From the NCBI RefSeq assembly GCF_026241135.1, contig NZ_JAPFGA010000002.1, positions 186,001 through 250,000 of the forward strand: DNA of 64,000 nt, in the 5' to 3' direction. The DNA comes from Galbibacter kalidii. GTDB taxonomy: Bacteria > Bacteroidota > Bacteroidia > Flavobacteriales > Flavobacteriaceae. This document shows, piece by piece, positions 355-10,681 of the stretch. Position 1 is the first letter of the stretch; each line of letters starts with the position of its first letter. The notes beneath the pieces were generated by a model, which saw only the letters and a program-made list of their open reading frames with translations, searched no databases and had not been told where the DNA came from. The position numbers and the translations under genes were made by a program.

Positions 355-2576
355 TTGTAAAAGCTTTTATAAAAACATAAAACCATTTGGTTGGAATAAT
401 ATTCATTATTGTGATTTTTTACCACTCCTTTGTTATGAAAAAGAAACTCTTCCAAGACAAAACTCCGCTTCCTTTTTATAGTTTGTAAGAGCATCTCAAT
501 ACAGTCATTATTATTAAGGTTGAGTGTTAATGTATTATCACCATCTATCAATTGTACCCAATCAGGGATTTGATAATCTTCTCGCCATGTTTTGAGTTTA
601 TCTTTCAAGCTCATGTGACCTTTATCATCATCAATAATTTTTTTAAAGTCCGAAACATCGATTTTCCATATAGCTTTTGCTAGGATAAAGTCTCTATAGA
701 CAACTCTGGGAAGGAAATAGTATATTTCAGAGAGTGCCCCCCAATCAAAGCCTATACTTTGTCGTTTACTTTGTAAACCAACCTCACATAAAAATTGATA
801 TATTGGAAGAGAGCTATTTTTATAATTATGTGCATTGGTTAAATAAGGCAACACTTCCTTGTTTAGTTTTTTGGAACGAAGTATAATTCTATTGTCTTTT
901 ACAGAGATCAATAAATCTGTGACTGGTATTTGCTGCTCTAGATTTAAATTGGAATTGGCTAAATATGGAATCTCATATTTTCTTAATTTAGGGCGTAGTA
1001 TTACATTTCCAGTGCGTTCCTCGGGAAGATGTATAATTTCAGCTACAATTTTATCGGTATTAAGGGATTCTTCCTTCTTAGATATTTCATTAATTAGGCT
1101 ATGAACCTCAGAATTACCGTGATAAAATCTACTCATTAATTTGGCTGCGCTACTCCCAAAAATAGAGTTAACATACATCATTTCCTTGTTGTCAATTAAC
1201 AATAATTCTGCTAAACAGCTCATGGTGTCAGGAAGATTATTCCAGTTTGGATTTAAATCCGGGAAGTCATTATCTTCCAGTTCCACAATAAATGGAGTTT
1301 TCTTATGGTGCTGTATTTTTTTATTTAAAACCTGTGTTATGGTATCCCAATGTAATTTTTTATTGGAAAGTTTTTTATTTGGGATGATGACTTGATCAAT
1401 TAAATATGTTTGATTTGAATTCAAATTGACATGTTGGTATCCAATACCCATCTCAGTGTCTAACGCTTCTGTTAACGGAACTTCTTCCCCTTCATATCTA
1501 TTCAGAAACCTGGTTTTAAACTTGCTCAAGTCGGTAGACGATGTATGCAGAGTGATTTTATTCAAGAAGCACAGCACATCTCTTAATTTCCTTTTCCAAT
1601 TATGATTTAGGTGAGTTGTGGTCATTTTAGGAAACATATCCGTTTGAAGAAGGTGCTTTTTTGTATAGGGGATACCTATACCATCTGCAAGACTGATTAT
1701 TTTGTCATATTTTTCAATGGAATTCCCAAGAGATTTATCTAACAAACCGATCTGCTTTTGAAGCTTTCCTAAGTTTTTGTCTAATTTTTTTCCGGCTTTT
1801 CCTGTGTTTATTAATTTAAATAACTTTAAATGATATGGAATTCCAGAAAGTGTTGGCTCATATTCGGAGGTGATAATTTGGTTATCAATTAGCTCATCTA
1901 TAAAATTGCAGGATTCTAAATTATTAAACCCTTGTCTTGTCAAGATTTCTACAAACTCTGATATCCGCACCCCTTTTTCAGCTTCTTGAAGCAATAGATC
2001 TAAACATTTAAATGCTTTAACTCCTTCAAGACTATATTTCCTTCCATTATCATTGCTTATATACTGAATATACCGATAGTGATCTCCAACTTTATACAAA
2101 GTATTATTGGGATACCATCGGATATTATTTTTAATATTGGGTAGTTTCAACACATATCTATAGATGTTTGTTACATAGTCCATATCCAATCGTGTTTTCC
2201 TGTTGAAACTTTCATATTTGTCGATGTTCAAACACGTTTCATGGGAGTACCCGCCAACCGTACAACCTGCAAATAACCCAAAAGGGGTGCATCTGGAAGA
2301 CATGCGAGATAAGTATTTCAAAAAGGAAATTTTAATTCTTTTTTGCTTTTTGGAATCTGTAATTTTTCCTTCTTTCCAAAAAATTATTTGTTGATATAAA
2401 TCAGGAGATGCAAGATAAATGGATTCATTTATGATCTTATCATTAAAAAGGCTGATTAATTTCTTTTTATGAATACTTTCTATTGATGTTAAATCACGAA
2501 AAAAGACTATCGGTAATAAGGGGATTCTTAGTAAAAAAGAATTATAACATTGGTATTTAGTTGTAGATGGGGGCAA
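351..2576 (-). CDS. Lantibiotic dehydratase, N-terminal (glutamylation) protein
   Basis: A 741-residue protein resembling the N-terminal LanB dehydratase domain: an early LLRIPLLPI strand, SSRCTPFGLFAG near residue 95, RLDMDYV near 130, and further conserved stretches to about residue 680. LanB N-terminal domains use glutamyl-tRNA to glutamylate Ser/Thr in a precursor peptide. Full LanB proteins are about 1000 residues; here the elimination domain is a separate gene downstream that overlaps by 4 bp (ATGA). The gene is divergent from the HlyD gene across a 239-bp AT-rich gap. No Cys-containing precursor is visible on this side, so the true substrate may lie left of the window. A LanC cyclase is also not in view. 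Confidence 0.85.
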   Translation of the reverse strand: MPPSTTKYQCYNSFLLRIPLLPIVFFRDLTSIESIHKKKLISLFNDKIINESIYLASPDLYQQIIFWKEGKITDSKKQKRIKISFLKYLSRMSSRCTPFGLFAGCTVGGYSHETCLNIDKYESFNRKTRLDMDYVTNIYRYVLKLPNIKNNIRWYPNNTLYKVGDHYRYIQYISNDNGRKYSLEGVKAFKCLDLLLQEAEKGVRISEFVEILTRQGFNNLESCNFIDELIDNQIITSEYEPTLSGIPYHLKLFKLINTGKAGKKLDKNLGKLQKQIGLLDKSLGNSIEKYDKIISLADGIGIPYTKKHLLQTDMFPKMTTTHLNHNWKRKLRDVLCFLNKITLHTSSTDLSKFKTRFLNRYEGEEVPLTEALDTEMGIGYQHVNLNSNQTYLIDQVIIPNKKLSNKKLHWDTITQVLNKKIQHHKKTPFIVELEDNDFPDLNPNWNNLPDTMSCLAELLLIDNKEMMYVNSIFGSSAAKLMSRFYHGNSEVHSLINEISKKEESLNTDKIVAEIIHLPEERTGNVILRPKLRKYEIPYLANSNLNLEQQIPVTDLLISVKDNRIILRSKKLNKEVLPYLTNAHNYKNSSLPIYQFLCEVGLQSKRQSIGFDWGALSEIYYFLPRVVYRDFILAKAIWKIDVSDFKKIIDDDKGHMSLKDKLKTWREDYQIPDWVQLIDGDNTLTLNLNNNDCIEMLLQTIKRKRSFVLEEFLFHNKGVVKNHNNEYYSNQMVLCFYKSFYK

Positions 2577-2815
2577 AAGGAATAGGTTTAAGTATAAATG
2601 AAAAAGTTAAATATTATATAGAATATAATGCTAAAATAAACATTATAATTGGAATTAAAAAACTGTTAATTTATAAAACAAGACTCTTCTTTTATAAATC
2701 CCGACTACAAACATTTGGATAACACCTATAATCTGAGGAAATTCACGTTGTCATAAAATATGTATGCTGAAAAGCGGTAAAACTATTTTATCCTCCACAT
2801 AGCAATGATTGAATT

Positions 2816-3982
2816 ATGAAACAACTATTCCCCAAAGAAGTTATTGAAAGTACATCAATAGCACATGCATTTAAACATAGAACAAGAAGTAAAATAGTAT
2901 ATGGAATAATATTGATAAGTATACTGACTGCTTTGATTTTACTCCCATTTATACATGTCACAGTCTATACTTCAGCAAGAGGAATCATAAAACCTGATAA
3001 GGAAAGGGTAGCTGTAAATACCATCAATTCAGGAAAAGTAGTATATGCCAATATACAGCCCAACAAACAGGTGGTTAAAGGCGATACACTTTTAGTCATA
3101 GATAATGCCGTTATAGACGAGAAGATCGATCTTGCAACATATCAGATTGAAACCTTAAAAGAACAACAATCCGATTTAAATTATCTGATCAGATCTAATA
3201 ATATCAGACTAAATGAGATAACCTCACCTAAATACCAAAGAGAAGTCATTCAATATAGAGAAAAGAGAAATGAGCTACAGACCCGGTTGAAAAAAACAAA
3301 AATAGACTATCAGCGTAATAAAACATTGTATGACAAAGGAGTAATAGCTCAAGCTGAATTTGAAGAGGTTCAACTTCAATATGATTTATCGGTAAATAGC
3401 CTATATCAACATAAGAAACAGCAACTGAATACTTGGCAGGCCAACTTGACCGAGATTGAAAATCGGCTTGAAGAAATTGAAAATAGTAAAAAGCAACTCT
3501 CAGAAAACAAGAAATTGTATGTAATCACGGCCCCAATAAATGGGGTGTTAATGAATACACAGGGCATTGAACCGGGAAGTTATCTGCAAGCCGGCATGGG
3601 AATAGCCGAAATTTCACCAATGTCTGATTTGCTGGCAGAATGTTATGTGTCCCCGGTAGATATAGGGATGATAAAACCCGAAAACGAAATAAACTTTCAG
3701 ATAGATGCCTTCAACTATAACCAATGGGGATTGGCTACCGGTAAAATAATCGAAATGGGTAAAGATATTGAGGTTATAGACAATCAAGCTGTTTTTAAGA
3801 TACGGTGTAAATTGGCTGAACCCTATTTGGAATTAAAGAACGGGGTCAAAGGGACATTGAGTAAAGGGATGACCTTTAACGCCCGTTTCCAACTGACCGA
3901 ACGAACTTTATATCAATTGTTATACGACAAATTGGACGATTGGCTGAACCCTTCCTTAAAAGAAAATAAAGAGAACATATAA
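2816..3982 (+). CDS. HlyD-family membrane fusion protein of a peptide exporter
   Basis: 388 residues. One membrane segment at about residues 28-50 is followed by a periplasmic biotinyl-lipoyl-like half motif (about 58-90), a long charged coiled coil (about 105-235), the second lipoyl half (API-NGVL, about 240-270) and a beta-barrel domain. This is the layout of HlyD/EmrA adaptors that link an inner-membrane ABC transporter to an outer-membrane channel. The C39 peptidase ABC transporter at 5866 is the obvious partner. No TolC-like gene is nearby, so a channel encoded elsewhere is presumably used. The ATG at 2816 suits the start of a short cytoplasmic N-terminus. Confidence 0.9.
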   Translation: MKQLFPKEVIESTSIAHAFKHRTRSKIVYGIILISILTALILLPFIHVTVYTSARGIIKPDKERVAVNTINSGKVVYANIQPNKQVVKGDTLLVIDNAVIDEKIDLATYQIETLKEQQSDLNYLIRSNNIRLNEITSPKYQREVIQYREKRNELQTRLKKTKIDYQRNKTLYDKGVIAQAEFEEVQLQYDLSVNSLYQHKKQQLNTWQANLTEIENRLEEIENSKKQLSENKKLYVITAPINGVLMNTQGIEPGSYLQAGMGIAEISPMSDLLAECYVSPVDIGMIKPENEINFQIDAFNYNQWGLATGKIIEMGKDIEVIDNQAVFKIRCKLAEPYLELKNGVKGTLSKGMTFNARFQLTERTLYQLLYDKLDDWLNPSLKENKENI

Positions 3983-4035: not shown

Positions 4036-4395
4036 ATGAAAAATGTGAAAAATTTGGAACGTCTACAACAACTCCACATGCTTATTGAAAACGAAAATAC
4101 CGGAACGCCAAAAGAGCTTGCTGAACACATGAATATCAGTGAACGTAAGATACACCAACTTATAGGGGAGTTAAAAGACCTAGATGCAGAGATTTGCTAC
4201 AGCCGAAGCAGGAAAACATATTATTATTGTGATGATTTTAAGCTGATGATAAACATTTCTGTTACGGTGTTAAGCAACAATGAAATAACAGAACTATACG
4301 GTGGAAGTTATTTTTTAAAGAAAAAACCTTCCCTGCAAGGTTTGTGCAGTGAACGCGATTATATTAGCCACAACAAAACAAAGATATGCGCATAA
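4036..4395 (+). CDS. Small HTH-domain protein of a bacteriocin-type cluster
   Basis: 119 residues. Residues 5-60 form a winged-helix/HTH_11-like domain (TPKELAEHMNISERKIHQLI) with a following YYYCDD wing. The part after residue 90 (GGSYFLKKKP onward) is unlike the folded part and is encoded by the first copy of the hairpin repeat found again at 5810-5834, so the 3' end of the gene doubles as a DNA or RNA element. It sits between the HlyD gene and the double-glycine peptide genes and may regulate the cassette, which is inference. A terminator-like hairpin follows the stop codon directly. Confidence 0.75.
   Translation: MKNVKNLERLQQLHMLIENENTGTPKELAEHMNISERKIHQLIGELKDLDAEICYSRSRKTYYYCDDFKLMINISVTVLSNNEITELYGGSYFLKKKPSLQGLCSERDYISHNKTKICA
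4329..4353 (+). repeat. Hairpin repeat, copy 1 (within 3' end of HTH gene)
   Basis: TTCCCTGCA, seven loop bases, then TGCAGTGAA: a 9-bp stem with a single C-T mismatch. The same arms and loop length recur at 5810-5834, and similarity continues downstream to about 4378 (CGC, then ATT, GCCA, AACAAAA). Here the repeat is read as the C-terminal codons of the HTH gene. Confidence 0.75.
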
Positions 4396-4396
4396 C

Positions 4397-4417
4397 ATAC
4401 TGAACTTGTTTCAGTAT
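4397..4417 (+). terminator. Terminator-like hairpin after HTH gene
   Basis: ATACTGAA, a 5-base loop, TTCAGTAT: a perfect 8-bp stem starting just after the TAA of the HTH gene and followed by CTTTT. It would separate the HlyD-HTH transcript from the peptide genes or act as a processing site. Confidence 0.5.
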
Positions 4418-4461
4418 CTTTTAAAAGGCGGTGCACAGCCTGATAAAAGTTGTTTTGTTGA

Positions 4462-4492
4462 ATGCTGCCCCGAAACATAGGGGATGCAGCAT
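4462..4492 (+). promoter_or_regulatory. Leader hairpin upstream of first peptide gene
   Basis: ATGCTGCCCC pairs with GGGGATGCAGCAT (7 bp, a 2-base bulge, then 3 bp of C/G) around a short loop, ending 37 bases before the ATG at 4529. It lies in the expected untranslated leader of the peptide genes. It could be an attenuator, a stability element or a terminator without a long T-run. Function is inferred only from structure and position. Confidence 0.4.
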
Positions 4493-4528
4493 CTTATAAA
4501 TAATTGTTTAACTTTAAATTTTAATAAA

Positions 4529-4690
4529 ATGAAAAATTTAGAAAATTATGGTGTTCTGGAATTGGATGCTATTGAGGCCTCTCAAGTTGATGGGGGAGGT
4601 AAACTTGCAGAATGGCTAGGATATGTAATTGGAGCCATGGTCGGAAATGGTCCTACATATGCGGAACAAACAAATAGAGCATTTACTTAA
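4529..4690 (+). CDS. Double-glycine leader peptide 1 (candidate bacteriocin precursor)
   Basis: 53 residues from the ATG at 4529. The leader MKNLENYGVLELDAIEASQ ends in VDGG, a double-glycine site for a C39 peptidase. The predicted core of about 30 residues (GKLAEWLGYVIGAMVGNGP, then TYAEQTNRAFT) has no cysteine and contains overlapping GxxxG motifs (GYVIG, GAMVG), a feature of two-peptide class IIb bacteriocins. I prefer 4529 over an in-frame upstream ATG at 4484 because that one lies inside the leader hairpin and would add residues unlike a double-glycine leader. The absence of cysteine argues against it being the substrate of the divergent dehydratase as a ring-forming lanthipeptide. Confidence 0.8.
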   Translation: MKNLENYGVLELDAIEASQVDGGGKLAEWLGYVIGAMVGNGPTYAEQTNRAFT

Positions 4691-4701
4691 ATCAAGAGAC
4701 T

Positions 4702-4866
4702 ATGGATATTTTAAATTATAATGTAAAGGAATTAAAATCTTCTGAAATCGAAGAATTACAGGGAGGTTTTTGGAAAGAAGCCATTGGAGCGGTCATATGG
4801 ATTGTTGATAATTGGGATGATATTGAGGCTGGATATCATCAGGGTTTTAATGATTATGCTAATTAA
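4702..4866 (+). CDS. Double-glycine leader peptide 2 (candidate bacteriocin partner)
   Basis: 54 residues, starting 11 bases after the stop of peptide 1. The leader MDILNYNVKELKSSEIEELQ ends in GG at residues 21-22; cleavage would release a 32-residue core beginning FWKEAIGAVIWIVDNW, acidic in its second half and without cysteine. Both peptides share the leader pattern (NLEN/ILNY, G or N-V, EL, E-I-E) and the core order of hydrophobic helix followed by polar tail. The pair is arranged like class IIb two-peptide bacteriocins. Activity is not demonstrated by sequence. Confidence 0.78.
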   Translation: MDILNYNVKELKSSEIEELQGGFWKEAIGAVIWIVDNWDDIEAGYHQGFNDYAN

Positions 4867-4884
4867 CATAGGCTAATTTTACAA

Positions 4885-4914
4885 GAAACTACCTTAATAA
4901 ATTAGGGTAGTTTC
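4885..4914 (+). terminator. Hairpin between peptide genes and CPBP gene
   Basis: GAAACTACC and GGTAGTTTC form a perfect 9-bp stem 18 bases after the stop of peptide 2 and 13 bases before the CPBP start. There is no T-run, so it is more likely a partial terminator or a processing/stability element that keeps downstream expression below that of the peptides. Confidence 0.45.
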
Positions 4915-4927
4915 GCTATGCGTAGAG

Positions 4928-5410
4928 ATGAGATTTCTTTTAAGGATAAGCAAATTCAAATTTATTTTATATTCTATAACCTTATGTTTATTAGCGAATG
5001 TGCTATTATCAAAGGTTATTTTATTATATAACGAAAATTCATTTGATGTACAACAATCTGAAGAAGGAAGTATAATTTTTAGATTTATTGTAATTATAAT
5101 ATTAGCACCTCTTTTAGAAACGTTATTATATCAATTTATAATCATCGAGGCAGGGATTTTTCTTTTTAATAAAAAAAAGAAAACTTTAATGATAATTATT
5201 TTGATTTCATCAATTATGTTTGGACTATCACATTGCTATAATCTTAGTTATATAATTCTAGGTGTATCAGCAGGGATTATATTGTCTTTATTATATGTTC
5301 TTTGTAAGCTTAGAAAAGATATTTCCCCATTCTTTTTTGTTTTTATTGTTCACTCTTTTGTGAATTTTACTGTATATTTAGTGAATAATATTTTCAGTAT
5401 AGATATTTAA
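4928..5410 (+). CDS. CPBP-family intramembrane protease-like protein, possible immunity protein
   Basis: 160 residues with about four hydrophobic segments. The CPBP (Abi/CAAX-type) motif region is recognisable: PLLETLLYQF near residue 59 stands for motif 1 and FGLSHC near residue 98 for the F-x-x-x-H motif. Motif 1 is normally E-E-x-x-x-R; here the second Glu is Thr and the Arg position is Gln, so protease activity is uncertain. CPBP proteins are common immunity partners of peptide bacteriocins, and the position right after two precursor genes supports that role. The gene is noticeably more AT-rich than its surroundings, consistent with horizontal transfer. Confidence 0.75.
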   Translation: MRFLLRISKFKFILYSITLCLLANVLLSKVILLYNENSFDVQQSEEGSIIFRFIVIIILAPLLETLLYQFIIIEAGIFLFNKKKKTLMIIILISSIMFGLSHCYNLSYIILGVSAGIILSLLYVLCKLRKDISPFFFVFIVHSFVNFTVYLVNNIFSIDI

Positions 5411-5425
5411 AATATATATAAAATA

Positions 5426-5635
5426 ATGATAAAATCATACTACATAAGTATTTTAATTGGTTTTTTATTTTTGTTAGATTTTGTTGATGGATTGTTTCTT
5501 CAACAAGAATCTTATAAAATTTTAGGGTTCATAGTTGTAAATTCTAAGATTATTTATCTATTATATAAATTTGCAATAGCTTCAAGTTTGATTTTCTTAG
5601 GTTTTAGGGAGCGTAGGCAAAATAAATATGATTGA
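5426..5635 (+). CDS. Small two-helix membrane protein, possible immunity factor
   Basis: 69 residues with two hydrophobic helices (about 7-25 and 35-57) and a basic, charged C-terminus (FRERRQNKYD). No recognised family. It starts 15 bases after the CPBP gene and is similarly AT-rich, so the two are probably co-transcribed. Small hydrophobic proteins in this position in bacteriocin loci are often immunity proteins, but that is inference from context. Confidence 0.55.
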   Translation: MIKSYYISILIGFLFLLDFVDGLFLQQESYKILGFIVVNSKIIYLLYKFAIASSLIFLGFRERRQNKYD

Positions 5636-5809
5636 AATTTATAATTTGCAACCATTCTATATTTTTTATCCTCTTAACTAATCCTTGCTCTTCCAAGTCT
5701 CCTAACTTTGGAGAATTTAACCAAAGAATAACAATGGTTATCAACCTCCGTTTTTTTATCCTCTCTACTTTGGAGAAATCAACAATAATAAAGTTAGGAT
5801 TAAAATTAC

Positions 5810-5834
5810 TTCCCTGCACTTTTTTTGCAGTGAA
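5810..5834 (+). repeat. Hairpin repeat, copy 2 (upstream of C39 transporter)
   Basis: Same arms as copy 1 (TTCCCTGCA, 7-base loop, TGCAGTGAA) with a T-rich loop, ending 31 bases before the ATG at 5866. Downstream similarity to copy 1 (CGC, TA-ATT, GCCA, AACAAAA) runs to about 5856. No open frame of the HTH type precedes this copy; the 230 bases upstream contain no convincing gene. Confidence 0.75.
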
Positions 5835-5865
5835 CGCTACTACATTGCCAAACAAAAAGTAATCA

Positions 5866-8022
5866 ATGGCAAAAATCACCATAAAACAACATGATATTAC
5901 CGATTGTGGTGCAGCTTGTTTGGCTTCTATTGCTGCTCACCATCAATTACAACTTCCTATTGCACGTATAAGGCAATATGCAGGCACCGATAAAAAAGGC
6001 ACCAATGTTTTGGGGTTGTTGGAAGCTGCCCAAAAATTGGGTTTTGAAGCCAAAGGGGTTCGTGGCGATTTTGAGAGCCTCTTTAAAATCCCAAAACCTG
6101 CGATTGCCCATGTGGTTGTTAAAGAAGTGCTTCAGCATTATGTAGTTATCTACGAAGTCACCAAAACCCATGTTAAAATCATGGATCCTGGAGATGGGAA
6201 AATGCACAAGAAAACCCATGATGAGTTTAAAAAAATGTGGACTGGGGTTTTGGTGCTGTTATTGCCTCAAGAGAATTTTACCACCGGGAATGAAAAAGTT
6301 TCTGTTTTAAAGCGTTTTTGGTTCTTGCTCAAGCCACATAAATTTGTATTGCTTCAGGCATTGATAGGGGCTGTTGTATATACCCTTTTAGGTTTTTCCA
6401 CTTCGATCTATATCCAAAAAATAACAGATTATGTGTTAGTAGACGGCAACAGGAACTTACTCAACTTGTTAAGTGTTGCTATGATTGTTCTGTTGGTGCT
6501 CCAAATTATAATTGGGGTGTACAAAGATGTGTTTTTGATCAAATCAGGGCAGCAAATAGACGCCCGGCTTATCCTTGGATATTATAAACACCTTTTAAAA
6601 CTGCCTCAACAATTTTTTGACACCATGCGGGTAGGGGAAATCATTTCCCGGATAAACGATGCGGTTAAAATCAGGACCTTTATCAACGGGGTCTCCTTAA
6701 ATTTAACAGTAAACATTCTTATTCTGGTATTTTCCTTCGGAATTATGTTTACCTATTATTGGAAATTGGCATTGATCATGTTGGCCATCATTCCTCTTTA
6801 TGCACTGGTCTATTTCGTTATTAACAAACTCAATAAAAAAACGGAGCGTAAAATCATGGAACGTTCTGCCGACTTGGAAAGCCAGTTGGTTGAATCTTTA
6901 AATGCTGTGGGTACTATAAAACGTTTTGGACTCGAAGATTTTGCTAACATAAAAACAGAAATCCGTTTTATCAACCTTTTAAAAACCGGGTATAAATCAG
7001 CTTTAAACAGTGTTTTTTCCGGTGGTAGCACCAATTTTATCGCACAATTGTTTACGGTTATTTTGTTGTGGACGGGTTCGGGTTATGTAATCGACAGGCA
7101 GATTACTCCCGGGGAATTATTGTCTTTTTATGCTATCATTGGTTATTTCACCGGACCGGTAGCAAGCCTTATCAATGCGAATAAGCAAATACAGAATGCA
7201 TTGATTGCAGCCGATAGGCTGTTTGAAATTATGGATCTGGAACGTGAAGAAACAGAAAACAAAATTCAATTAAGGAAAGAACATATTGGCGATATCACTT
7301 TTAAAAATGTGGCTTTTAGATATGGAACCCGTGTTGAGGTATTTAAAGATTTCAATTTGGTAATCCCAAAAAGTAAGATTACAGCCATAGTGGGGGAGAG
7401 TGGTTCGGGCAAATCGACACTTATTTCATTATTGCAAAATATTTATCCGCTACATGGAGGGAATATTTTTATGAACGACGTGGACTTAAAACACATTGAT
7501 AATGATAGCCTCCGGAATTTTGTTGCTGTAGTGCCTCAAAAAATAGACCTCTTTGCGGGTAATGTAATAGAAAATATAGCTATTGGTGTTTTCAACCCGG
7601 ATATGGAACGGATCATGAATATCTGTAAGGACATAGGGATATTGGAATTTATCGAATCATTACCTAACGGATTCAATACATATTTGGGTGAAAACGGGGC
7701 CACATTATCAGGAGGACAGAAACAGCGTATTGCCATTGCCCGAGCTTTATACAAACAACCAGAAGTATTGGTTTTAGACGAAGCCACTTCGTCATTAGAT
7801 ACACGCTCTGAAAGTTATACCCAAAAAACAATCAATACACTAAGGGATCAAGAGAAGACAATTGTCATAATAGCCCACCGACTCAGTACAGTCATAAATG
7901 CGGATAAAATTGTAGTGCTCGATAAAGGGGAAGTGATTGAAGAGGGAACTCATCAAGAATTATACGAATCTAAAAACAGCTATTACCAGTTATGGCAACA
8001 ACAAATGCCTATTTTAAATTAA
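5866..8022 (+). CDS. Peptidase (C39)-containing ABC transporter, bacteriocin exporter
   Basis: 718 residues. The N-terminal C39 protease has catalytic Cys14 (DCGAACL), His91 (QHYVVIYE) and Asp107 (IMDPGDG). A six-helix transmembrane domain spans about residues 160-440. The ATPase follows with Walker A GESGSGKST near 508, signature LSGGQ near 614, Walker B VLVLDEAT near 637 and the H-loop His near 672. Such transporters cleave double-glycine leaders in the cytosol while exporting the core peptide, which matches the two precursors at 4529 and 4702. The length is normal for the family. It works with the HlyD adaptor at 2816, and could also export the product of the divergent LanB locus. Confidence 0.95.
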   Translation: MAKITIKQHDITDCGAACLASIAAHHQLQLPIARIRQYAGTDKKGTNVLGLLEAAQKLGFEAKGVRGDFESLFKIPKPAIAHVVVKEVLQHYVVIYEVTKTHVKIMDPGDGKMHKKTHDEFKKMWTGVLVLLLPQENFTTGNEKVSVLKRFWFLLKPHKFVLLQALIGAVVYTLLGFSTSIYIQKITDYVLVDGNRNLLNLLSVAMIVLLVLQIIIGVYKDVFLIKSGQQIDARLILGYYKHLLKLPQQFFDTMRVGEIISRINDAVKIRTFINGVSLNLTVNILILVFSFGIMFTYYWKLALIMLAIIPLYALVYFVINKLNKKTERKIMERSADLESQLVESLNAVGTIKRFGLEDFANIKTEIRFINLLKTGYKSALNSVFSGGSTNFIAQLFTVILLWTGSGYVIDRQITPGELLSFYAIIGYFTGPVASLINANKQIQNALIAADRLFEIMDLEREETENKIQLRKEHIGDITFKNVAFRYGTRVEVFKDFNLVIPKSKITAIVGESGSGKSTLISLLQNIYPLHGGNIFMNDVDLKHIDNDSLRNFVAVVPQKIDLFAGNVIENIAIGVFNPDMERIMNICKDIGILEFIESLPNGFNTYLGENGATLSGGQKQRIAIARALYKQPEVLVLDEATSSLDTRSESYTQKTINTLRDQEKTIVIIAHRLSTVINADKIVVLDKGEVIEEGTHQELYESKNSYYQLWQQQMPILN

Positions 8023-8369
8023 CCACACCTTCACAAAATTCAAGGAAAATAAAACTAGGTCAAAAAGTTAATGTTAACGTGAATAATGTTTAGGCAACCC
8101 ATGATGGCAACAGACTGGGCTAAAATTCTAGATGATGAAGAACTGGCAAGGGTATTTTATGAAATTTTGTCACCAAAATAGGTGCCAAAAAATCGAAAAC
8201 CCCTGCAAAATCAACGTTTTACAGGAGTTTTGTGCACTCGAGGCGGGAAATATCAAGATTAACACCTCATGCTTACATGGTATTTAGGCAAAATACCCGT
8301 CTTAAACTAATCTTGATAGAAAAAGGAACAATTGAACTATAAATATTTTTAAAATGAGATTGCCATTTT
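8023..8369. other. Intergenic region: minor ORF and tRNA-end-like remnant
   Basis: A 26-codon frame at 8101-8181 (begins MMATDWAKILDDEE) has no support beyond being open; it may be a relic. The strong inverted repeat at 8196-8231 is listed separately. Next to it, 8232-8248 read on the minus strand is TCCCGCCTCGAGTGCAC, which looks like the end of a tRNA T-stem and acceptor stem. No complete gene is seen. Confidence 0.4.
8196..8231 (-). terminator. Inverted repeat / intrinsic terminator
   Basis: AAAACCCCTGCAAAA and TTTTACAGGAGTTTT form a 15-bp stem with two wobble pairs and a 6-base loop. The T-rich flank suits the minus strand, where it would follow the tRNA-end-like remnant at 8232-8248; it may also stop transcription from the transporter gene. 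Confidence 0.5.
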
Positions 8370-9575
8370 TCAAAGCAGTAACTCACAGGCTTCATCCAAA
8401 ACAGAGCTATCAAGCTCTTTTAAATATACCTGTGTAATAGATACATTTTGATGTCCCATGGATTCGCTGATCACATCTGTTGCTACACCCTTTTGCTTTA
8501 AACAATTGGCAAAGGTATGACGAGCAACATAACTAGTAATAGGTTTTTCAATTTTACATATTTTAGCAATTTCTTTTAGGTCTTTATTGTATTTTTTTAG
8601 GGTCTTGGATTTTCGGTTTTCTATTTGGCTAGGCGTCATATTGTCCTTTAATAAAATAGGGAACACATATTGAGTCTTGTTTACTTGACAATAATAATCC
8701 AATATTTCACGGACAGGTGGTAAAATCTTAATAGTGAATTTACCTTTTGTCTTTGAACGTATATAGAAGATCTTATCACCTGAAATATTAGACCATCTAA
8801 GTTTCATCATATCTGCAAAATTCATCCCCCGGGTATAGAAACTAAACAGAAAATAATTCCGAGTATCGATTAAATCAGGGTGTTTTGAAATATCCATATT
8901 GATGATACGTTGAATTTCATCAATGTTAAGAGCCTTCTTGATTCCTTTTCCCTTTAATTTGGAAATCTTATAGCTATTGAACGGATAATAACTTCGCTTT
9001 ACAACCTTTCTTTCAATAGCCATATTATACAAGGCCCTAATTGCCCGCATACGCACGCCTATACCCCCGTCAGTACCGCCCCTTGATCTTAAGAATACTT
9101 CGTATTTGTTTAGAAAGGTCGGAGTAATTTCTTGAAAAAAAAGTGAAGTAGAATTGAGGAATAATTTTACTGAATTATAAGTGTCCCTATTAGCTCTTGC
9201 ATTACCTGTTCTTCCGGCTGTAATCATTTCATTAATAATCTCATTCCAAAAGCTAAAAACACTCAGCTTAACAGGATTTGATTCTACCCTGAACTGCCTT
9301 TCAAAGTCTTCTAAGGTGAAATGGTCTTTTTCAATTTCAAGGTCGGAATATGTTTTTAATGCCCTTGCTTTTATTTTTAATAACAGCCTATTACTCTGGA
9401 TGTAATTATTATAACCCTTATTGAATGTCCCAGTAGCATTATCCCAATGTTTAGGCAACGCATTATAAATAGTTTTGAAGTATTTTGTTTTTCTATCTTT
9501 GGTAACCCTTAGGCAAACAGGATATGTGCCATCAGTGAGTTTCTTTTTGCGTAAAACAGTTTTAATACTTGCCAT
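8370..9575 (-). CDS. Tyrosine recombinase (integrase) of an integrative element
   Basis: 401 residues from the ATG at 9575 (MASIKTVLRKKK), the usual start of this Bacteroidota family; an upstream in-frame ATG at 9614 would add 13 atypical residues. An arm-DNA-binding N-terminus (RVTKDRKTKYF) and a SAM-like core-binding domain precede the catalytic domain with Arg in TRGMNFADM, HTF in ARHTFANC, and MGHQNVSITQVYL supplying the final His and Tyr. The gene lies about 145 bp from the tRNA-Asn fragment at 9721, as expected for an element integrated at a tRNA. A short direct repeat GTACAACA-TAG-GTACAACA (9590-9608) just upstream could be a binding site. Confidence 0.92.
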   Translation of the reverse strand: MASIKTVLRKKKLTDGTYPVCLRVTKDRKTKYFKTIYNALPKHWDNATGTFNKGYNNYIQSNRLLLKIKARALKTYSDLEIEKDHFTLEDFERQFRVESNPVKLSVFSFWNEIINEMITAGRTGNARANRDTYNSVKLFLNSTSLFFQEITPTFLNKYEVFLRSRGGTDGGIGVRMRAIRALYNMAIERKVVKRSYYPFNSYKISKLKGKGIKKALNIDEIQRIINMDISKHPDLIDTRNYFLFSFYTRGMNFADMMKLRWSNISGDKIFYIRSKTKGKFTIKILPPVREILDYYCQVNKTQYVFPILLKDNMTPSQIENRKSKTLKKYNKDLKEIAKICKIEKPITSYVARHTFANCLKQKGVATDVISESMGHQNVSITQVYLKELDSSVLDEACELLL

Positions 9576-9720
9576 AATCTTAGGTTTGGGTACAACATAG
9601 GTACAACAAATCATCGATTAAAGGTAGTCTTTTTGCAAATTGAAGCAAAATATTTTCATGTAATATATTGATAATCAATACAAAAGAAAATAAATACCTT
9701 TAAATGAAAACTGTAATTTG

Positions 9721-9766
9721 CTGACTGTTAATCAGAGGGTCCTTGGTTCGAGCCCAAGAGGGGGAG
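9721..9766 (+). other. tRNA-Asn(GTT) 3' fragment, probable attachment site
   Basis: The sequence from the anticodon stem to the discriminator base is present: stem CTGA, loop CTGTTAA with anticodon GTT at 9727-9729, T-arm CTTGG-TTCGAGC-CCAAG (9742-9758) and acceptor strand AGGGGGA (9759-9765) plus G. There is no D-arm or 5' acceptor strand; upstream sequence becomes unrelated exactly at the anticodon stem. This is the footprint left when a tyrosine recombinase crosses over inside a tRNA gene. The orientation implies the element lies to the left and original flank to the right, with the intact tRNA-Asn beyond the left window edge. Confidence 0.8.
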
Positions 9767-9772
9767 CATAAC

Positions 9773-9810
9773 AACAGAAAGCCATTCAAGAAATTGAGTG
9801 GCTTTCTGTT
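9773..9810. terminator. Strong bidirectional terminator after tRNA-Asn fragment
   Basis: AACAGAAAGCCA pairs with TGGCTTTCTGTT (12 bp), continuing through TTCAA / TTGAG over a GAAA loop for 17 pairs in all. A T-rich stretch follows on the plus strand. It lies 188 bp downstream of the minus-strand operon ending at 9998 and could end it too. The same hairpin core recurs at 19237-19262 and, inverted, at 24994-25019. Confidence 0.8.
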
Positions 9811-9997
9811 TTCTTCAGGTTAAACAATCCATGTTTTATTTTTACTATCTGCGGCAGTTGTCAAAATTTCTTTGACAACTGAATTCTATAAGATTGCCAA
9901 ATTGTTGAAAGTTTTGTATCCCAATACGCGAGTAAGTCATGATAAGCTTGGGGATGTTACCGCTAATTAATAAAATTTTCGCTTTTCAATTAGTTCA

Positions 9998-10681
9998 CTA
10001 ACCCACCGCAGGTATTGGTCCATAAATAGCATATTCCTTTTCTTTTTCAATTGCCCAAATAGCATTTCCATAATCAAAATGCCAATATTCTTTCAAATCA
10101 CATACAAAATCTTCACCCTCAAATAAACCGATAAGTAATGCCCGGTTCTTCTTTGCTTCAGCACTAATTTCTGGATAGTAGGGATAACACTTTTTTGAAA
10201 GATCTATCTCCAGCCCATCGTTTGTTCCAAAATCCATCACACAATTTCCTTTAATGTCATAGATCAAGGCATCTATTGCACCCCCCGTAGCGTGCATGGA
10301 TTTTGTCGGGGGAGCAATGAAGTAACTTATTCTCTCTTTGATTTCAACGTCTGACTTTTCAGGATGTTTTTTCAGATAGTATGCAAATTTAGAGTCCCAT
10401 AAAAGTTTTTGATGTTCAAAAGATCTCCAAGCGGAACGAATGATCAAAATTTTATTTTGATTGTACAACTCCTTACTGATTCGGCCTATTTTTGCCAAGA
10501 TATCCTCCCTAATAAGGTAATTATAGTCTTTCGAAATCGAAGGTTCAAAAATCAAATTAAAATTTGAATCCATCAAACTCACTAAAGGTTCATGGTTTTC
10601 CCGAATCCAAATGGAGGGCACTAAAAGTTTATTCCTACTATCTTTTGTCTCAACTGCTTCACAGTATACTTGTACATTCAT
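9998..10681 (-). CDS. D-alanyl-D-alanine dipeptidase (VanX-type, peptidase M15D)
   Basis: 227 residues. The zinc motif SMHATGGAIDAL matches S-x-H-x-x-G-x-A-x-D, and EYWHFDYGN gives the catalytic Glu and third zinc ligand. SAWRSFEHQKLLW holds the Arg that stabilises the transition state in VanX. The family hydrolyses D-Ala-D-Ala and related dipeptides; no signal peptide is visible, so it acts in the cytoplasm. It overlaps the racemase gene by 23 bp and is the last gene of the operon. In this setting, with no VanH or VanA ligase, a role in using or recycling D-amino-acid dipeptides is more likely than glycopeptide resistance. Confidence 0.88.
   Translation of the reverse strand: MNVQVYCEAVETKDSRNKLLVPSIWIRENHEPLVSLMDSNFNLIFEPSISKDYNYLIREDILAKIGRISKELYNQNKILIIRSAWRSFEHQKLLWDSKFAYYLKKHPEKSDVEIKERISYFIAPPTKSMHATGGAIDALIYDIKGNCVMDFGTNDGLEIDLSKKCYPYYPEISAEAKKNRALLIGLFEGEDFVCDLKEYWHFDYGNAIWAIEKEKEYAIYGPIPAVG

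Follow-up and report, generated by a model that had tools for sequence, protein, structure and literature searches.

The bacteriocins of the pneumococcal blp regulon are double-glycine peptides. Within this regulon, a single regulator acts through a repeated motif beside the -10 element, which stands before the bacteriocin/immunity and transport operons and before an outlying bacteriocin gene (PMC4739728; here and below, citations refer to sections of the reports). At the middle promoters of phage T4, a site near -30 for the activator MotA replaces the -35 element (PMC6755090). We analyzed a 64,000 nt stretch of Galbibacter kalidii (the window, with positions counted from its first letter) in which a dyad repeat, TTCCCTGCA-N7-TGCAGTGAA, stands once at the end of a gene for a small helix-turn-helix (HTH) protein and once before the gene for a C39 peptidase-containing exporter. 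As in the blp regulon (BlpR/H, BlpA exporter), a common motif precedes the peptide and the transport units. Most likely, the two copies are a pair of regulated promoters, the operator having evolved together with its regulator, and they mark either end of a peptide cassette that can be exchanged.

The repeat pair and its geometry as a probable promoter

Both mismatch-free copies, at 4329-4353 and 5810-5834, lie on the + strand, in the direct orientation reported in a preliminary description of this DNA. Allowing up to 3 mismatches yielded 4 matches in the window, namely the two sites, each of which also matched in reverse with 2 mismatches, compared to 0.05 expected from shuffles. A search of the 4,657,744-base genome with CCCTGCA-N7-TGCAGTGAACG, again at up to 3 mismatches, revealed no third copy, the sole extra match being the reverse reading of copy 1. 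Copy 1 sits within the 3' end of the HTH open reading frame (ORF; 4036-4395), and copy 2 ends 31 bp upstream of the exporter ATG (5866). By eye, the likeness of the two copies runs on for ~25 bp downstream (TGAACGC..TA.ATT..CCA), and their 7-nt loops are unlike (AGGTTTG in copy 1 versus CTTTTTT in copy 2); the preliminary description had drawn attention to this downstream similarity, as well as to the conserved length of the differing loops. The features on which the following argument depends are:

4329-4353, + strand: P dyad, putative operator ahead of the precursor operon, within the 3' end of the HTH ORF; the same element stands before precursors in relatives
4360-4367, + strand: -7 box TATATTAG, agreeing with TAnnTTTG at 5/6 positions; its first base lies 19 bp after the dyad centre (4341)
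near 4372, + strand: predicted transcription start of P, taking the box to lie at -12 to -5 as in PMC9723704
5810-5834, + strand: E dyad, putative operator ahead of the exporter gene; E elements stand before exporters in relatives
5841-5848, + strand: -7 box TACATTGC, agreeing with TAnnTTTG at 4/6 positions and fitting motif SM5, TAnnTTGY (PMC9723704); it lies 19 bp after the dyad centre (5822)
near 5853, + strand: predicted transcription start of E
4036-4395, + strand: small winged-helix (HTH_11) protein, likely binder of both dyads (PF08279, 5.2e-6, 26.7 bits)
4141-4179, + strand: predicted recognition helix, residues 36-48 (ERKIHQLIGELKD), from the structure model and helix comparison

We next counted dyads with at most 1 mismatch, with no box required, in the loci fetched from other genomes (L-numbers denote these loci and G-numbers the genomes of this analysis), omitting the Zeaxanthinibacter repeat loci described below. 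There were 67 distinct dyads, 56 upstream of a precursor-like ORF and 11 upstream of an exporter start, one of the latter (L091) preceding only an exporter stub; some of the 67 are plainly chance matches (e.g. L057 and L079). TAnnTT begins at offset 19 from the dyad centre in 52/67, and at any other offset no more than 4 times (mean count 0.43, offsets 18-20 being left out of the mean). Likewise, the exporter ATG follows the matched dyad by 35-39 nt in 11/11 cases. The dyad sites thus carry the TAnnTTTG-type -7 box of Bacteroidota sigma-A promoters. No TTTG or TTG box was seen at -33 in alignment A3 of 41 elements, in which the corresponding columns were CAAG-like by eye; this check used the usual position of the -33 box relative to the -7 box. 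Since the -7 box of Flavobacterium psychrophilum has been mapped at -12 to -5 (PMC9723704), the dyad centre would lie near -31. An unweighted dyad-plus-box scan of all HTH loci was dropped as too noisy in AT-rich DNA, its top match often being an A/T palindrome (in the window, such a palindrome ties with the P dyad at a score of 12), and we therefore relied on the other geometry and class counts.

These sequence comparisons make it very probable that the copies are regulated promoters, in which a palindromic operator and a sigma-A-type -7 box are set a constant distance apart. The precursor/immunity operon would be transcribed from the P copy and the exporter from the E copy. By binding the dyad as a dimer, at about -31 and hence in the place of a -33 box, the adjacent winged-helix protein would control the two units jointly. 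As a second layer, the block between the two promoters would be an exchangeable peptide/immunity cassette with promoters of its own. Because the dyad-box spacing is rigid and a -33 box is not visible, contact with RNA polymerase is suggested, and we favour activation as the likelier mode. An HTH protein that represses the P and E promoters is a less likely alternative that nevertheless deserves weight: with its centre near -31, the dyad spans the -33 region, and a repressor bound there would obstruct it, while the evidence that speaks against repression, namely the rigid spacing across operator classes and the missing TTTG-like -33 box, is not decisive.

Recurrence of the element and its probable link to the HTH protein

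In a first search, the repeat at up to 2 mismatches was matched in 10/299 genomes of the same family, of which 39 encode a homologue of the HTH protein and 23 a close exporter (E up to 1e-120). In the loci that we read, one dyad lay just downstream of the HTH gene and a second ahead of the exporter, followed by a TATATT-like sequence. The exact pattern TGCA-N7-TGCAGTG-N8-TAnnTT was present in 19/299 family genomes, and the control columns for the reversed pattern were 0 throughout. In 12 of these 19 genomes a match lies inside an HTH/precursor locus; the other 7 (G231, G037, G284, G247, G257, G280 and G064) have matches elsewhere only. A scan of 84,980 genomes with TGCAAGG-N4-TGCAGTG-N8-TAnnTT yielded 34 stretches, 21 of which have a double-glycine precursor downstream when read by hand (~420 nt away in L102). 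The remainder comprise 7 Zeaxanthinibacter units without a precursor, 4 apparently unrelated stretches (L089, L093, L099 and L110) and two undecided ones, L105, which ends too early, and L114, which holds just a disrupted precursor candidate. The element therefore borders double-glycine cassettes in most cases, as the preliminary description had asked, although not in all. P dyads are also present in L052, L054, L063 and L112. Pieces of Sinomicrobium contain a separate dyad for 4/5 precursors (L104) and for 5/6 (L109), and in L107 and L108 one dyad is common to several precursors. L016 (4363-4669, genome G270) holds a lone element with a precursor, an orphan cassette.

Dyads of different sequence stand beside divergent regulators, and the recognition helices change in step with the dyad class. 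The TGCA-type dyad accompanies the HTH_11 protein, with an S-x-R helix, in exporter loci. CTCTAAT-N3-ATTAGAG dyads stand beside CES-type helices (L075, L076), GTCCAA...TTRGAC dyads beside SRS-type helices (L077, one G016 locus, and L216-L220, five genomes of another genus, with L215 as a weaker case), and CTCA-N5-TGAG dyads beside S-x-A-T helices (L192, and L229 from another family). These non-TGCA classes all keep the -7 box 19 bp from the dyad centre. The window HTH protein scores above the PF08279 gathering cut-off of 25 bits and its structure model is a winged helix; top Foldseek matches of this model include NiaR and BirA, none with E <=0.001. Taken together, these comparisons indicate that the adjacent HTH_11 protein probably binds the dyad as a dimer.

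The position of the exporter gene bears on the same question. With up to 3 mismatches allowed (L052 needs all 3) and duplicates L102 and L107 omitted, an E dyad was present at most 130 bp upstream of the exporter in 13/17 loci in which the exporter is downstream of the peptides, compared to 0/9 in which it is upstream of the HTH gene and 0/8 exporter loci with no HTH gene in the fetched piece (L186-L191, L193 and L195). Such a distribution would be expected were each separate unit to require a regulated promoter of its own.

Several observations weigh against an operator read by the neighbouring HTH protein at a fixed distance from its box. In a shuffle test of dyad-box geometry, only L053, L075, L076 and L077 exceeded all 300 shuffles, with L097 (reached by 3) and L096 (5) less strong; the score of the window P dyad was reached by 13 shuffles, which is marginal, and those of L050, L192, L069 and L113 by 10, 15, 40 and 249, respectively, the last not being significant. 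Several E boxes lack TAnnTT at offset 19, and E is missing despite a downstream exporter in L015, L017, L063 and L065 (the exporters of L015 and L065 are distant, at 31-36% identity). L221 has an S-x-R helix without a TGCA dyad, L078 has no clear dyad, and no precursor was seen near L229. Of 12 orphan regulators, almost all of which have S-x-R helices, most lack a dyad in their vicinity, the orphan HTH locus L066 showing a 2-mismatch match ~6.7 kb off. Neither an HTH homologue nor a close exporter was found in genome G270, although it has the element and a precursor, and Zeaxanthinibacter has dozens of such dyads away from peptides. Lastly, the non-TGCA classes come from few genomes, the GTCCAA class mostly from one genus, and the genomes compared are related and hence not independent.

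Two other explanations of the dyad were weighed against these data. If the dyad served a different or global regulator, with the HTH gene as a passenger, then the presence of element and precursor in G270, where no HTH homologue was detected, and the many dispersed dyads of Zeaxanthinibacter would be accounted for; this is nonetheless improbable, since operator class tracks the recognition helix of the neighbouring HTH protein and exporter loci with XRE-type regulators (L187, L189, L190) have no dyad before the peptides or the exporter. These loci do contain isolated matches: L190 has one with 2 mismatches ~4 kb from the peptides, and in each of L187 and L189 a single match with 3 mismatches falls inside another gene. 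The preliminary description had considered a shared regulatory RNA or DNA element, of which the DNA form is well supported. An RNA hairpin acting in the mRNA as an attenuator, processing site or regulator site would account for the imperfect stem (one mismatched pair) and the conserved 7-nt loop, and the bare 33-mer of copy 2 does fold better than its shuffles (z -3.0), unlike that of copy 1 (z -0.63). Folded as single-stranded RNA, neither 81-nt stretch is stabler than its shuffles (z -0.42 and -0.75). The covariation that the preliminary description proposed to look for was not found: in 41 hand-picked elements, the stem is paired in 81.8% of cells versus 82.0% in shuffles, and both-side changes occur in 9 cells, no excess, as 250/500 shuffles reach this number. 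The outer left arm is poorly conserved and the right arm conserved, no relevant Rfam match was found in L019 (which carries both window copies), and with the -7 box downstream, the dyad would precede its own transcript. An internal contrast is provided by Zeaxanthinibacter, in which the dyad arms do not covary (outer 0.496 versus 0.487 shuffled; inner 0.935 versus 0.935), whereas a second hairpin downstream does (0.711 versus 0.587, 0/2000 shuffles, 67 units). Because stem covariation is absent and the -7 box lies downstream of the dyad, we rejected the RNA hairpin as very improbable; the repeat is best read as double-stranded DNA, a conclusion drawn from sequence comparison.

Two further occurrences of the element were noted. 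Zeaxanthinibacter contains 69 distinct units in which a similar dyad is followed by mostly TTAACTT- or TTATCTT-like boxes and then the G-rich hairpin with the covarying stem, both dispersed and in arrays with a spacing of ~75-180 bp (L171-L178, L180-L184, L084, L087, L088, L094, L095, L098, L103 and L018); one genome has 48 pattern matches versus 0 for the reversed pattern. No precursor was recognised beside the annotated units, the L171-L184 pieces not being checked for precursors. These units may be decoys, tiny RNAs or mobile repeats. In L093 (~5687, minus strand), an element with a TATGTTTG box lies ~60 nt before a secreted-looking ORF, with no precursor recognised; this element may be a chance match or part of a wider regulon.

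Peptide cassettes and a leader-like motif in the regulator

The two copies enclose two double-glycine precursors, a CPBP protein and a small membrane protein, as the preliminary description had stated and the gene list confirms. The remaining features of the locus are:

4267-4305, + strand: codons 78-90 of the HTH gene, VLSNNEITELYGG, match to a double-glycine leader (L-12, E-8, I-7, L-4, G-2, G-1; consensus from PMC6363468)
4514-4690, + strand: double-glycine precursor 1 (MKNLENYGVLELDAIEASQVDGG...), from the ORF translation
4702-4866, + strand: double-glycine precursor 2 (...NVKELKSSEIEELQGG...), with a weak TIGR03949 match below the cut-off
4928-5410, + strand: CPBP-type membrane protein, candidate immunity protein (PF02517, 6.1e-8)
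5426-5635, + strand: small, apparently membrane protein as judged from its sequence, a candidate immunity or accessory protein; family searches gave no match
5866-8022, + strand: C39 peptidase-containing ABC exporter (TIGR01193, above the cut-off)
2816-3982, + strand: HlyD-type membrane fusion protein, upstream of the HTH gene (family search)
351-2576, - strand: lantibiotic dehydratase N-terminal-domain protein, divergent neighbour (family search); the gene is also present in L049 and L051
8370-9614: tyrosine recombinase (family search)

The GC content is 0.22-0.27 across ~4750-5750 and 0.35-0.39 just outside. It is also low (0.28) at 2251-3000, so the AT-richness ascribed to the cassette in the preliminary description holds relative to its immediate flanks and is not peculiar to it.

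Comparison with L049, from another species of the same genus, revealed DNA similarity in parts of the fusion protein gene, in the HTH gene and P up to 4395 and in leader-coding sequence (4494-4596); similarity restarts at 5783 and continues through the exporter, window positions 4597-5782 having no match. In its 6400-10500 region, L049 also contains a 42-bp exporter-start stub and a second copy of the HTH end and P between two cassettes. L091 (820-7700) carries stacked cassettes with exporter-start/regulator-end scars, and at its three inner joints the first 9-15 exporter codons are fused, at different points, to the last HTH codons. All three joints that we read lie outside the dyads, in coding ends, at short stretches that by eye are common to both genes. 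These findings support the view that peptide/immunity cassettes stack and swap via joints in coding ends rather than in the dyads. Thus, the swappable cassette of the preliminary description is supported by the differing contents and kept flanks of L049 and by the stacks in L091 and L049, whereas the idea that the element itself is the exchange site is not.

That the dyads are recombination sites bounding a mobile cassette, either cut by a recombinase or used as homology, would be in keeping with direct-orientation copies flanking an AT-rich block, with the replaced contents of L049, with stacked cassettes and with the nearby tyrosine recombinase gene. We rejected a recombination site at the dyad because the three L091 scar joints that we read fall beyond the dyads, at varying points. 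In addition, 3/4 inner P dyads of L091 are preceded by a complete E, several dyads per locus stand before single precursors (L104, L109), and the model gives the fixed -7 box no role. Recombination at the dyads is accordingly quite unlikely, and a pair of regulated promoters around an exchangeable cassette is the preferred reading.

The HTH protein itself contains a segment resembling a double-glycine leader. Scored with a weight matrix built from 76 precursor-leader entries, residues 78-90 (VLSNNEITELYGG) reached 16.3 bits, compared to a maximum of 7.3 bits among 15,415 other windows, taken in six frames from 39 ORFs that span 180 residues or more; with the GG columns left out, 4/15,415 null windows reached the score. 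The segment agrees with the leader consensus of L at -12, E at -8, L/I at -7, a hydrophobic residue at -4 and GG (PMC6363468). The pattern, scored by eye as [LIM] at -12, [ILV] at -4 and [GAS]G at -2/-1 and uncorrected for relatedness, is kept in 30/32 regulators of exporter/peptide loci (the exceptions being L015 and L063) versus 3/12 orphans (Fisher p 1.5e-5). Four ambiguous proteins (L053, L059, L071 and L072), which fail the pattern though near peptide or exporter-like genes, were set aside; adding them to the exporter/peptide group gives 30/36 (p 4.2e-4). Since the motif is kept mainly near an exporter or peptide, it suggests that the regulator senses the exporter, and we tentatively propose that the regulator could carry its own double-glycine export leader, bound or cut by the exporter's C39 domain, although this is less probable than a motif without such a role.

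Several results weaken the leader idea. The motif follows the winged helix at residues 78-90 instead of forming the N-terminal leader of a small precursor, which is helical when bound, and the structure model of the unbound monomer shows this segment as a strand, with low confidence. Among the 30 pattern-keeping regulators, 8 have AG or SG, not GG; PMC6363468 gives GG, GA and GS as double-glycine motifs, with AG and SG not among them in the sections cited. The HTH proteins compared are related. By eye, the XRE-type regulators of three other exporter loci have no double-glycine tail, so convergent support is lacking. Lastly, the sections of PMC10986499 on HetC, considered as an exporter-regulator precedent, describe no leader-bearing regulator. 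If the idea were true, free exporters and precursor load would set the available regulator, coupling peptide transcription to export capacity, and a transcription factor would be wired to an exporter through substrate mimicry; a real leader would constitute a new way of coupling gene expression to secretion.

Significance and relation to described systems

For the double-glycine peptide weapons of Flavobacteriaceae, the proposed promoter pair offers a control circuit open to experimental test. We found no such circuit described in the open-access literature searched, which misses most subscription papers. At the DNA level, the dyad and the -7 box together give a means of locating small precursor genes, lone ones included, and the paired classes of regulator and operator are a natural series for the study of specificity change in a small winged-helix protein.

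The locus shares with Bacteroidetocin loci of the Bacteroidales the combination of a double-glycine peptide and a C39 exporter in Bacteroidota (PMC6671954). Those loci differ in their own neighbourhood, which includes a thiol oxidoreductase and a five-transmembrane protein, and the terms 'palindrom' and 'inverted repeat' are absent from the main text of that report. With respect to flavobacterial sigma-A promoters (PMC9723704), the P boxes resemble TAnnTTTG, and a number of E boxes match TAnnTTGY, the motif of the SM5 promoters that the report lists apart from its sigma-A motifs; unlike the usual promoters of this type, those described here have a fixed-spacing dyad in place of the -33 box. 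A site near -31 standing for a missing box recalls MotA and sigma appropriation in phage T4, but here the site is a dyad and no AsiA-like partner is known, and we do not claim homology to T4 middle promoters. The blp regulon has features of its own, namely 9-bp direct repeats, the BlpR/BlpH two-component pair and a pheromone; at the window locus, no kinase or pheromone gene was recognised among nearby ORFs, where no dedicated search was made. In contrast to blp, the repeat at the window locus is inverted, the adjacent regulator is a one-component HTH_11 protein and the -7 box is of the Bacteroidota type. On this reading, the locus works like the blp regulon without being a member of it.

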